Part shown: positions 28,790-49,770 of the stretch, piece by piece
Position numbering within the stretch: position 1 is the stretch's first letter
How the letters are laid out: every line of letters begins with the position of its first letter
Origin: Capsulimonas corticalis
Lineage (GTDB): Bacteria; Armatimonadota; Armatimonadia; Armatimonadales; Capsulimonadaceae
NCBI RefSeq assembly: GCF_003574315.2
Contig: NZ_AP025739.1
Span: forward strand, 5,518,001-5,582,000
Reading direction: 5' to 3'
DNA length: 64,000 nucleotides
Made by a program: the position numbers and the translations under genes
Notes under the pieces: generated by a model
The model's input: only the letters and a program-made list of their open reading frames with translations
Database searches by the model: none
Told to the model about the DNA's origin: nothing

Positions 28790-28957
28790 GGAGGATGGCC
28801 CTCACCCCCCGGCCCCCTCCCAAAATTGGGAGAGGGGGAGTCAGAGGGAGTTAGCGTTTAAGTCATAAGATCTTTTGGATCTTTGATCCAAATCTTAACC
28901 CTCGCCCAGACCTTTGGGAGAGGGTGGCCCGAAGGGCCGGGTGAGGGCTCATCCTCC
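28790..28957. repeat. Imperfect inverted repeat pair of the CCCTCACCC / GGGAGAGGG family
   Basis: GGAGGATG (28790) followed by GCCCTCACCCCCCGGCCCC and CTCCCAAAATTGGGAG faces a mirrored copy ending GGGTGAGGGCTCATCCTCC at 28957. The same kind of sequence recurs at 32.4 kb and 47.4-47.9 kb, always between genes. Here it sits inside the ABC operon between the binding-protein and ATPase genes. Confidence 0.7.
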
Positions 28958-42619: not shown

Positions 42620-43018
42620 TGGTGGAGGCGGAGGGAGTTGAACCCTCGTCCTAAGCAGCGAAAACCTAGGCGTCTACAAGCATAGCCAACAATTTAATTT
42701 TAGCGCTTCGGCCGCCTATTGGCGGGCTGCCAGCCGCGCGATCTTTCCTTTGATGTCCGCTTAAGCCAGAAAGCGATACTTAAGCGTGATCCCGTTTATT
42801 TACGCCTCGGTCTTCCCGGCGGGCTTGAGAAGAGGAAACGGACCGCCCGTAGGCGGCGCAATACTACCTAAGGGTTAGTTAGGCAGCCAGCGCGTACGAA
42901 GTACGGGCTGTGGTGAACTTAGTGTTCGCGTTTGTTTTTTTGCCGCTTTTTACGAGGCCAGCGGCGCCTCGACTTGCGACCTAAGCACTCAATCTCTCAG
43001 TCGAAACCTATCGCCCCC
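42620..43018 (-). ncRNA. ssrA: tmRNA (transfer-messenger RNA)
   Basis: About 399 bases. The 5' end GGGGGCGATAGGTTTCGACT and the 3' end GGTTCAACTCCCTCCGCCTCC-ACCA pair as a 7-bp acceptor stem and T arm, with CCA encoded. GGCCTCGTAAAAAGC, the conserved pre-tag region, is present. The tag reading frame starts GCG AAC and ends GCG CTG GCT GCC TAA. One-piece form. tmRNA with SmpB rescues stalled ribosomes and marks the product for proteolysis. Confidence 0.97.
42879..42929 (-). other. ssrA: tmRNA tag reading frame
   Basis: Encodes the degradation tag (A)ANTKFTTARTSYALAA, 16 encoded residues with the canonical YALAA end. The resume codon is placed at GCG (42929) by alignment to the E. coli pre-tag region; this is an inference. 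Confidence 0.8.
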
Positions 43019-46512: not shown

Positions 46513-47424
46513 GTGATAATCGACTTCCACTGCCATATTACGACTCCCGGCAGCAAACTCCCCGATCCTGACGGGCCATATTACCGGTCCATCGGGCCTT
46601 TGACCCCGGCCGCGAAGATGGTGGCGTCCTGGACGCAGGACGCCGTGGATTCGATGGCGGAACGGTGGCGCACCGCCGGCGCGCTCAAAACCTACCGAAA
46701 TATGGGACCGATCATCTACACGGAGATGAGCCGGCGGATGATCAGTACGGACGCCTCGTCGCTCCTGGGCGAAATGGCCGGCAACGGCGTCTCCAAATCG
46801 ATCGTGGTGGCGATGGATCCGTTCGTCCCCACCGAAGAGATCCTACAAGCCTGCGCGCTCGTGCACGGTCTGCTCATCCCCTTCGGCTCGGTGGACAACA
46901 GCCGGCCGGACTACCTGGACCGGTTCGCCCATCTTCTCGAACAGCCAATCGCGGGGATCAAGTTCCACAGCGACCTTCAAGAACTGCCGATCGATTCTCC
47001 GAAGCTGTTCGCCATGATGGCGCAGCTTGACGCGTCGCCGCGCCGTTCGCTGCCGGTTTACCTGCACACGGGCAACTTCCCAATTTACCGTCCCTCGGAC
47101 ACGCCCTGGGAAAAGGCGCTCCCGAAACTGCTGGACAAATTCCCAAACATCACGTTTGTCTGCGGCCATTCCGGCTGGGACGCGCCCCGCGCCGCTCTGC
47201 GCGCCGCCCTCAACCACCCGAACCTTTATCTGGAGACCAGCTGGCAGCCGCCCCGACTGATCCGCCGCCTGTGCGACAAACTCGGCCCGGAACGCCTCCT
47301 GCTTGGCTCCGACTTCCCGCTCTTCTCCCAGGCCCGCGCCATCAAAAACGCCCGCACCGCCCTCACCGACGCCGAATTCGCGATCGTGAGCTGCGACAAC
47401 GCCATGCGGCTGCTGCGGCTGTAG
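46513..47424 (+). CDS. Amidohydrolase family protein (PF04909 type)
   Basis: 303 residues from a GTG. TIM-barrel metal hydrolase landmarks: MIIDFHCHI (HxH), IAGIKFHSDLQELP, VYLHTGNF, FVCGHSGWDAPRAA and LLGSDFPLF (final Asp ligand). Members include decarboxylases and lactone hydrolases; the reaction cannot be assigned. Cytosolic. It is followed by its own terminator and then by a repeat element. Confidence 0.85.
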   Translation: MIIDFHCHITTPGSKLPDPDGPYYRSIGPLTPAAKMVASWTQDAVDSMAERWRTAGALKTYRNMGPIIYTEMSRRMISTDASSLLGEMAGNGVSKSIVVAMDPFVPTEEILQACALVHGLLIPFGSVDNSRPDYLDRFAHLLEQPIAGIKFHSDLQELPIDSPKLFAMMAQLDASPRRSLPVYLHTGNFPIYRPSDTPWEKALPKLLDKFPNITFVCGHSGWDAPRAALRAALNHPNLYLETSWQPPRLIRRLCDKLGPERLLLGSDFPLFSQARAIKNARTALTDAEFAIVSCDNAMRLLRL

Positions 47425-47484
47425 GAATGGCCCTCATCCCCAGCCCCTTCTCCCAGTTTTGGGAGAAGGGGAGCCAGAGTAAGA

Positions 47485-47521
47485 CTCCCCCTGTAGGAGC
47501 CCTCACAGGGGGAGGTTTTTT
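47485..47521 (+). terminator. Rho-independent terminator of the amidohydrolase gene
   Basis: CTCCCCCTGT (47485-47494) pairs with ACAGGGGGAG (47505-47514), followed by G and six T. Confidence 0.8.
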
Positions 47522-47525
47522 CCGC

Positions 47526-47746
47526 CTCGGCAATAAATTACGAGGTTCGCTCTGACCCCGCATTGAAATACGGGGCTGGGGGCGCTTCGCGCCGACCGTC
47601 CGTCCCGGACGGAAGAGAGTATTCGCAGGCGTTTCTTAATTCTTCCGTTCGGTACGGTGGGCGCCCTTTGGGCACTGGTTGCGAAGCAACCTCCAGCCCC
47701 GTATTTCAATGCGGGGTCAGAGCGAACCTCGTAATTTATTGCCGAG
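47526..47746. repeat. 54-bp perfect inverted repeat with 113-bp spacer (MITE-like)
   Basis: Left arm 47526-47579, right arm 47693-47746, identical without a mismatch when inverted (begins CTCGGCAATAAATTACGAGG). The spacer is itself partly self-complementary (ACCGTCC...GGACGGAAG against CTTCCGTTCGGTACGGT). It encodes no protein. Size and perfect arms suggest a miniature inverted-repeat element or a very large hairpin. Confidence 0.85.
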
Positions 47747-47897
47747 TCCTTAATGCGAAGCGCCCCCAGCCGGGTAATTTATTGCCCGGTACGCAAAAAA
47801 CCTACCCTTGTGAGCTGTGGGGGCCGGGGGGCATCCTAACCCTCTCCTAGAATTGGGAGAGGGCGGCGCGAAGGGCTGGGCGAGGGCCATCCCATCC

Positions 47898-48653
47898 TCA
47901 TACAATCCCCCCATTCACCCGAATCGCCTGCGCGGTCACGAACCCTGACAGATCGCTGCATAAGAAAAGCACGACGCCGGCGACGTCGTCCGGTTTGCCG
48001 GTTCGGCGCAGGGCGGTGCTGGCCGCGACGCGCTGCTTGGTCTCTTCGCTCGGCGTTTTGCCGGAGAATGCGGTCTCCGTGAAGCCGGGCGAAACGACGT
48101 TGGCGCGAATTCCCTGCGGACCGACTTCCTGCGCGAGCGACTGCGTGAAAAGGATCAGGCCGGCTTTCGATGCGCCGTAGAGCGCGGTTCCGCGCAGACC
48201 TTCATGTCCCGCTCCGCTGGCAATAGAGACAATTGATCCGCCGCTAGGCATGAGCGGCGTGACCAGGCGAGTGAGCAGAACGGCGCTCGTGAGATTGGTG
48301 TCGATCAGATGCTTCCAATCGTCCACGGATGTTTCGTTCCATGCGCCGCGCGACCCGATTCCCGCACTCAGGATGAGCAAGTCCACACGATTGTTCATTA
48401 TATCGCGGATTGGTCCGGATAAAGCGGCGATCTCGGATTCTTTTGAAATATCGCAGACAATATTCGCGTGCGCTGCATCCGGTCCAGCCCATTGCCGCAC
48501 GGAGAGCGACTCGTCGGCGGCGGCCCGATCGGAACGATAAAGCGCGAGCGTAGACGCGCCCGCCGAAGCCAGAGTCTGCGAGATGGCGCGGCCGATCCCG
48601 CGCGTGCCGCCGGTGATGAGGGCGTTTTTGCCGGACAGGTCGATCGGTAACAT
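47898..48653 (-). CDS. SDR family oxidoreductase
   Basis: 251 residues from the ATG at 48653 with GGAGG upstream; the longer frame runs into the phosphofructokinase gene and is rejected. Classical short-chain dehydrogenase: ALITGGTRGIGRAISQTLA (TGxxxGIG), ILSAGIGSRG (NAG-type), SIVSIASGAG, YGASKAG (catalytic Tyr-x3-Lys) and C-terminal RVNGGIV. Resembles FabG-like 3-oxoacyl reductases but substrate is open. Convergent with the amidohydrolase gene; downstream of the PFK terminator. Confidence 0.92.
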   Translation of the reverse strand: MLPIDLSGKNALITGGTRGIGRAISQTLASAGASTLALYRSDRAAADESLSVRQWAGPDAAHANIVCDISKESEIAALSGPIRDIMNNRVDLLILSAGIGSRGAWNETSVDDWKHLIDTNLTSAVLLTRLVTPLMPSGGSIVSIASGAGHEGLRGTALYGASKAGLILFTQSLAQEVGPQGIRANVVSPGFTETAFSGKTPSEETKQRVAASTALRRTGKPDDVAGVVLFLCSDLSGFVTAQAIRVNGGIV

Positions 48654-48680
48654 GGCGTGATCCTCCGAGAACGATCGTGA

Positions 48681-48719
48681 CAAAAAATCAGCGCCCCGGC
48701 GGATGGCCGGAGCGCTGAT
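48681..48719 (-). terminator. Rho-independent terminator of the PFK gene
   Basis: Minus strand: ATCAGCGCTCCGGC pairs with GCCGGGGCGCTGAT (one wobble), followed directly by a six-T run. Confidence 0.88.
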
Positions 48720-48729
48720 CGGTGTGACG

Positions 48730-49770
48730 TTACTTGTTGAACGTGGTGACGAAGGTGTCGTAGAGGTCCTGCGGAACCAGCTTCCACTGCTTGACGGCTT
48801 CCTGGATCGGAACCGCCAGGATCTCCGTACCCTGGAGCGCAACCATCTTGCCGAAGTCGCCCTTGTGGACGAGCTCGGCGGCGTGGATGCCGACCCGGGT
48901 GCCGAGGATGCGGTCGAACAGCGTCGGCGAGCCGCCGCGGACCGTGTGGCCGAGAACGACGTCGCGCGTCGGGAATCCGGTGCGCTTCTCGATCTCTTTC
49001 GCGATGGCCGGTCCAATGCCGACATCGCCCAGCTGGTGGTGGCCGAAGGCGTCCAGCTCGACGTTATCACCCTTTTGCGCGCCCGGGATCTCAACGCCTT
49101 CGCTGACGACGACGATTCCCCAGGTCTTGCCGCGCGCGTAGTTCTTCTTCAACTGCTCGCACATCGCTTCGATATCGACGGCGACTTCCGGAAGCAGAAC
49201 CCAGTCGGCCGCGCCGGCGACGCCGGACCAGAGCGCCATCCAGCCCGCATGCCGTCCCATCACTTCGACCACGATGACGCGGTCGTGCGATTTGGCGGTG
49301 TCGCGCAGACGGTCAATCGAGTCCAGCGCCACCGAGGCGGCGGAGTCGAAGCCGAACGTGTAGTCGGTCTTGTCGAGGTCATTGTCCATCGTCTTCGGCA
49401 CGCCGACCGTGGGGACGTTGTGCAGCGTGTAGAGCTTGGAGGCGACGCCGAGGGTGTCCTCGCCGCCGAGCGCCACCAGAGCGTCCAGTTCGAACTTCTT
49501 GATGTTCGCCAGGACCGCCTCTAGCTGCGCTTCCTTGCCCGGAGCGAACGGGTTCGTGCGCGACGAGCGCAGGATGGTGCCGCCCTGATCGATGATGCCC
49601 TCGACTCGCTCAAGGGTGAGCGGCTCGGTATTGCCTTCCACAAGGCCTTTCCAGCCCTGGGTGAAGCCGATCACTTCGTCGCCGTAGTCCAGCAGGCGGA
49701 GCACCGCGCCGCGTATCGCCGGGTTCAAACCCGGGCAGTCCCCACCACCGGTGAGCATTCCGATCTTCAT
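48730..49770 (-). CDS. pfp: Phosphofructokinase, signatures of the PPi-dependent type
   Basis: 346 residues. PFK fold with MKIGMLTGGGDCPGLNPAIR at the start. At the phosphoryl-donor site it reads GGEDT (102-106) and VPKTMDNDLD (124-133): the second acidic residue replaces Gly104 of the E. coli ATP enzyme and Lys126 replaces Gly124, the pattern of PPi-using PFKs (ATP types have GGDGS and GTIDND). Family members with this pattern phosphorylate fructose 6-phosphate or sedoheptulose 7-phosphate using PPi. Donor preference is inferred. Follows hpf by 39 bases. Confidence 0.88.
   Translation of the reverse strand: MKIGMLTGGGDCPGLNPAIRGAVLRLLDYGDEVIGFTQGWKGLVEGNTEPLTLERVEGIIDQGGTILRSSRTNPFAPGKEAQLEAVLANIKKFELDALVALGGEDTLGVASKLYTLHNVPTVGVPKTMDNDLDKTDYTFGFDSAASVALDSIDRLRDTAKSHDRVIVVEVMGRHAGWMALWSGVAGAADWVLLPEVAVDIEAMCEQLKKNYARGKTWGIVVVSEGVEIPGAQKGDNVELDAFGHHQLGDVGIGPAIAKEIEKRTGFPTRDVVLGHTVRGGSPTLFDRILGTRVGIHAAELVHKGDFGKMVALQGTEILAVPIQEAVKQWKLVPQDLYDTFVTTFNK

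Follow-up and report, generated by a model that had tools for sequence, protein, structure and literature searches.

The core of a palindromic intergenic region in Capsulimonas corticalis (about 47526-47746) is very probably a REPIN/TIR-type miniature element that was moved in trans by a transposase encoded elsewhere in the genome (transposase 1), lies nested in older palindromic repeats (M, P, and O), and probably had its arms copied locally. The core consists of two three-hairpin repeats (REPs) of ~64 nt each, arranged as an inverted doublet with a spacer of ~23 nt. This doublet is dispersed in the genome, its base pairing is conserved, and it is linked to an intact transposase gene. The window, that is, the whole 64,000-nt stretch of DNA analyzed, is part of a single contig of 7,645,051 bases (the 7.6-Mb Capsulimonas genome), and positions refer to the window unless given as genome positions. 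The nearest relative compared was Capsulimonas sp. isolate RYN_270 of the same genus, hereafter the sister genome.

Nested inverted shells between two convergent genes

The element takes up the whole interval from the end of one gene at 47424 to the end of the next, a convergent gene on the minus strand, at 47898. The initial annotation had described three inverted shells here with perfect 54-bp inner arms, and our measurements agree with this description. The inner arms (47526-47579 and 47693-47746) are identical at 54 of 54 positions, and when extended to 47582/47690 they match over 57 nt at 98%; 10 windows simulated with a first-order Markov model gave perfect inverted repeats of at most 18 within 500 nt, versus the 54 observed. 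The middle shell (47502-47524 and 47792-47814) is 87% complementary, and the outermost shell (47424-47435 and 47882-47893) matches at 92%. Folded as single-stranded DNA, the 221-nt core has a predicted energy of -101.4 kcal/mol, compared to a mean of -36.8 for shuffled sequences (z -18). The features of the locus are as follows.

46513..47424, plus strand: left flanking gene, presumably amidohydrolase-like from its sequence; its sister orthologue is 93% identical over residues 117-303
47426..47480, plus strand: left outer shell, family O (CCCTCATCC..CTTCTCCCA-TGGGAGAAG), first arm of an O doublet; copies are dispersed, and core-less doublets occur elsewhere
47502..47524, plus strand: left arm of middle shell M (CTCACAGGGGGAGGTTTTTTCCG), 87% complementary to the right arm
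47526..47579, plus strand: left 54-bp perfect arm, consisting of a small hairpin D, a linker, and hairpin A; found as an inverted-repeat match
47553..47616, plus strand: REP 1 with hairpins A, B, and C (CCCCGCATTGAAATACGGGG-CTGGGG-B-GACCGTCC..GGACGGAAGA); model R1, 94.4 bits
47617..47640, no strand: 24-nt spacer between REP 1 and REP 2, 88% like the spacer of the copy at genome position 3613431 (reversed)
47641..47719, minus strand: REP 2 in inverted orientation, carrying an additional GCGCCCTTTGGGC hairpin; model R1, 48.0 bits
47693..47746, minus strand: right 54-bp perfect arm; found as an inverted-repeat match
47747..47792, minus strand: incomplete third REP, corresponding to an outer part of the usual "beta" arm; model R1, 36.9 bits
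47792..47814, plus strand: right arm of middle shell M (CGCAAAAAACCTACCCTTGTGAG), 87% complementary to the left M arm
47815..47838, plus strand: family P (CTGTGGGGGCCGGGGGGCATC), right arm; P forms its own inverted doublets elsewhere
47834..47893, plus strand: right outer shell, second arm of the O doublet; dispersed separately among the matches listed (query 409-467), and paired with left arms elsewhere
47898..49094, minus strand: right flanking gene, presumably short-chain dehydrogenase-like from its sequence; convergent open frame as listed, its true start probably inside that frame; syntenic in the sister genome

The shells belong to repeat families of their own. Within the window the outer hairpin recurs once, at 28813-28836, in line with the initial assignment of the outer shell to a repeat family found elsewhere in the window. 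Family O (CCCTCTCCCA-TGGGAGAGGG) occurs at no fewer than about 40 places in the genome (best 40 of 49 candidates scored), often as inverted doublets, and doublets of this type without the core are found elsewhere in the same genome (L126-L137). In a plasmid collection a single weak match turned up, confined to the outer shell: a similar 57-bp O piece (86%) on a Pseudanabaena plasmid, and by this sequence likeness the O kind of repeat may be common to several phyla. The segment adjoining the core on the right represents a third doublet family, P (GATGCCCCCCGGCCCCCACAG), whose inverted pairs are mostly about 100-165 nt apart (L157, L158, L159, L160, L161, and L164); the left P arm at the window locus, around 47480-47500, is degenerate. 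At the P doublet L160 the arms lie about 480 nt apart, and the stretch between them looks coding by eye. The middle shell M also occurs without the core, at genome position 6129614.

The three-hairpin repeat and a linked transposase

We aligned 36 REP units (34 from this genome and 2 from the sister; 33 distinct sequences), which are 36 of 47 rows after exclusion of 6 type II rows from this genome, 1 type II row from the sister, and 4 rows that were outside the element or overlapping; REPs with an extra hairpin fall outside the search expression that collected the rows. Hairpin A (CCCCG..CGGGG) has the loop T-G/A-A-A and a conserved C-A mismatch (C in 35 of 36 units, A in all 36), and it is followed on its 3' side by a conserved CTGGG linker, with C24, T25, and G28 present in 36 of 36 units. 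The stem of hairpin B is variable in this alignment, and hairpin C (CCGTCC..GGACGG) has 6 pairs with 100% of cells paired. Across the proposed structure 98.8% of cells are paired versus 21-49% with partners slid, the structure having been drawn from the same alignment. Nine of 19 pairs are altered on both sides, for a total of 57 cells with compensating changes, which none of 500 shuffles reached; the alignment was made by sequence, and both the structure and the covariance model come from these same sequences. The tags of known REPs were considered as well. GTAG was rejected as a tag, though it is present inside the M shell, as it is absent 5' of the hairpins in the 36 units, where the columns before hairpin A vary. 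CGTC was rejected as an unpaired end tag because it is base-paired inside hairpin C.

Searching the 7.6-Mb genome with the covariance model yielded 96 REP copies at E<=0.01, of which 68 are paired. These include 36 pairs of neighbors no more than 150 bp apart, and in 34 of the pairs the two REPs have the same inverted arrangement, with gaps of 20-25 nt. Identical spacers are common to distant doublets (groups of 3, 2, and 2 among 25 spacers compared), and the window spacer is 88% like that of the doublet at 3613431; among 20 shuffled spacer sets the highest likeness was 0.78. Such same-sense doublets with nearly fixed gaps, and with spacers common to distant copies, indicate that the doublet is the spreading unit. 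Sequence searches gave at least 90 genomic matches to the whole element (best 40 of 193 candidates scored) and at least 55 to the core (best 40 of 67); a single-copy core had been named as the observation to set against a mobile origin, and the core proved to be multi-copy. For 27 core loci, which exclude type II loci and the weakest matches, we recorded the gene context with a simple codon-score caller that missed transposase 1. By this rough caller, no core copy (0 of 27) lies inside a called gene, and 24 resolved copies comprise 11 between convergent genes, 9 between co-directional genes, and 4 between divergent genes.

A profile search identified four Y1 transposase genes and one fragment in the genome. 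Transposase 1 (genome 2822418-2822852) is an intact open frame between 96-nt arms that are 95% complementary and correspond to the core repeat. Its motifs DHVHL and NYIENQ, which we take to be the HUH and tyrosine motifs holding the catalytic residues, align with DHIHL and KYIEEQ of chain 2f4f, a solved IS200-type transposase. The protein passes the IS200/IS605 cut-offs (NF033573, 82.4 bits vs 55; PF01797, 93.9 vs 23) but falls below that for RAYTs (NCBIfam NF047646, 30.1 bits vs 80). To our knowledge, target-site duplications are not expected for a transposase of the IS200/IS605 type; none is evident by eye at the window copy, which has other repeats all around it. Transposase 2 (genome 2171913-2172317) is flanked by 86-nt arms with 90% complementarity that belong to a variant (type II) repeat, which is also dispersed in the genome. 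The type II repeat with its own transposase (L124) was also observed in the sister genome (G001:C710). The Y1 transposases at 448981 and 440187 were rejected as partners: they have no such flanking inverted arms and no O, P, or M motif, and so are not linked to the repeats.

The sister genome carries the orthologue of transposase 1, 88% identical and between the same repeats. It also has the two convergent genes of the window locus (86.5% and 83.5% DNA identity), with an outer-type doublet only between them (61-nt arms, 87%, 48 nt apart). The REP model found no convincing match at this orthologous locus (best 9.6 bits, E 0.058), and together with the bare outer-type doublet this indicates that the core is absent there. 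A gain of the core in the window lineage is the simpler reading; loss in the sister is possible, since the absence rests on one sister genome. The REPIN at genome position 4081317 is found at the same locus in the sister genome, so at least one doublet predates the split and part of the population is old. The suggestion that the core is a MITE inserted into an older repeat was therefore essentially right, given the dispersed copies, a transposase with matching ends, and core-less outer doublets both in this genome and at the sister locus.

Among 61 genomes, the REP model was positive in 16 and a transposase homolog was found in 33, which include all 16 (hypergeometric P 6e-6, kinship ignored). 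Eight of 34 transposase loci had a model match at E<=0.05, or 6 of 32 independent ones once the training loci L057 and L069 are removed. In a set of 80 named transposase loci from many phyla, 10 had a match at E<=0.1, one of these loci (L175) being the sister training sequence. Inverted arms scoring >=20 surround the transposase gene at 52 of these 80 loci and at 0 of 71 shifted control windows (9 loci had no room for a control), which argues that flanking inverted hairpin arms are common for this transposase branch. Such arms around a transposase have been reported for TIRtrons (PMC3733652).

We weighed two other accounts of what this element is. It is unlikely, in our estimate, that the mobile unit is a larger M-core-M' MITE with terminal inverted repeats TCACAGGGGTAGGTTTTT, moved by another transposase and carrying the REPIN as a passenger. 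M does adjoin 17 of the 27 core copies, 7 of them on both sides, compared with 17 loose-pattern matches in the 63.3 kb of the window outside the element, and the junctions M-CCGA-A and D-TACGCG-M' recur. M may itself belong to the mobile unit instead of being an older host. However, 10 of the 27 copies lack M, including all 4 near transposase 1, M is found without the core, and the single transposase with matching ends among the Y1 genes searched carries REP and not M. Even less probable is that the element, not mobile at present, persists chiefly because it acts as a structured RNA or a bidirectional terminator where genes end. Its very stable fold, its position a few bases from two convergent stop codons, and the convergent setting of 11 of 24 resolved copies would fit such a role, but the element is missing from the same intergenic region of the sister, the doublets have common spacers and a transposase link, and no Rfam family matches it. 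Rfam searches across the window returned the tmRNA alone, so the element belongs to no known RNA family. The tmRNA gene itself lies at 42620-43018 on the minus strand (180.8 bits). A terminator scan gave 5 matches vs 1.0 expected, two of them one palindrome read on both strands, and we did not count this as evidence; the terminator/promoter scan contained no promoter-like site. A structured RNA at the gene ends may still arise as a side effect of the REPIN/TIR-type element that we favor.

Perfect arms and a probable inversion of the core

The perfection of the inner arms had been taken to imply recent origin or strong selection; that one arm was copied locally onto the other is the better reading. 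The two arms agree at 54 of 54 positions, whereas no other copy exceeds 91% over 53 bp (best 40 of 67 candidates), and the sequence that follows the right arm on its right side resembles other copies at 94-96% over 77-86 bp. In copies L098 and L103 a 20-bp hairpin takes the place of the window's longer arm. The core is also oriented opposite to 10 of 12 resolvable copies relative to the shell (17 loci tested); the copies at 7624568 and 1578522 have the orientation of the window, with weak shell matches. Because the arms match only each other fully and the core is flipped relative to the shell, we believe that the perfect arms probably result from local copying of one arm onto the other together with inversion of the inside. 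These are the two outcomes stated for template switching between inverted repeats (PMC8604942), and the flip could also come from ordinary recombination between the arms. Overwriting of the right arm alone was dropped in favor of copying with inversion after the orientation comparison. Copies L102 and L109 have a spacer in common (92%) whose direction with respect to the same shell is opposite in the two, and they may represent another instance of inversion.

A recent insertion whose arms have not yet diverged is a rather doubtful alternative. An insertion with homogeneous arms would look alike, and the arms beside transposase 1 are themselves 95% alike over 96 nt. Against this, the inner parts of the same two arms in the window differ, one having an extra hairpin, no donor copy with these arms was found above the 91% given above, and the perfect tract ends abruptly in a core that is flipped relative to its shell.

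Taken with local arm copying, the history that we favor would run as follows. Transposase 1 would bind REP hairpins in the single-stranded state, for example on the lagging-strand template, and cut and join the strand; in this way the doublet would be transferred or copied into new intergenic positions with no target duplication. At the window locus the doublet would have been placed inside the older palindromic repeats M, P, and O, and a polymerase or recombination event there probably copied one arm from the other and inverted what lies between them. Effects on the two convergent transcript ends, such as termination or protection of mRNA ends, would be secondary. By analogy with the biochemistry of IS200/IS605 and TnpA-REP enzymes, which show strand-specific recognition of folded single-stranded DNA with contacts to a mismatched stem and loop bases (PMC8266576), hairpin A with its C-A mismatch may be the recognition target of the transposase. 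We would guess that the unpaired CTGGG (CCCAG on the other strand) may act as a guide or tag that replaces GTAG.

More tentatively, it is conceivable that in this lineage such loci are assembled like Russian dolls, with new doublet families preferring the loop region of an older doublet and with template switching or inversion repeatedly re-copying and flipping the inside. If so, four families (O, P, M, and REP) are nested in this way at the window locus, and the perfection and assortment of arms would be products of replication at hairpins, not of age or selection. The window copy is in any case a natural example in which arm copying with inversion can be separated from recent insertion.

Comparison with known systems

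Our literature search, which covered mostly papers outside subscription journals, found no report on repetitive extragenic palindromes in Armatimonadota, and the main text of the TIRtron study (PMC3733652) does not mention the phylum. The element resembles REPINs as described by Bertels & Rainey 2011 (PMC3116915) in its dispersed, inverted REP doublets of nearly fixed spacing, its compensating changes, and its link to a Y1 transposase. It differs from that description in its ~64-nt three-hairpin REP without GTAG, in its tens rather than hundreds of copies, and in a transposase that is IS200/IS605 by score and not RAYT. TIRtrons/TIRYTs, as presented by Di Nocera et al. 2013 (PMC3733652), likewise have a single Y1 gene between long inverted repeats of a dispersed family, and those repeats are partly self-complementary and often dimers; a GGGGWSAS motif is given for some of the TIRs, and inspection by eye did not reveal it next to transposase 1. 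The CGTC-tagged REPs of the same account also have CGTCC adjoining a stem, but here CGTC is paired in hairpin C rather than an unpaired tag, and a transposase is linked. With the IS200/IS605 elements IS608 and ISDra2, as portrayed in PMC8266576, the element has the transposase family and hairpin ends with a mismatched stem base in common, while it differs in lacking a second gene, in having long symmetric arms on either side, and in combining one gene copy with many gene-less copies.

The analysis brings a REPIN/TIR system to Armatimonadota, in which each of two transposases adjoins a different variant of the repeat and which can be compared with that of a sister genome. The conserved C-A mismatch and the CTGGG linker provide concrete targets for studying how IS200-type enzymes beyond the classical RAYTs recognize miniature elements. 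Set beside these systems, the window copy is a known kind of element in a phylum from which our search brought up none, and its more unusual features are the nesting and the probable copying of the arms.
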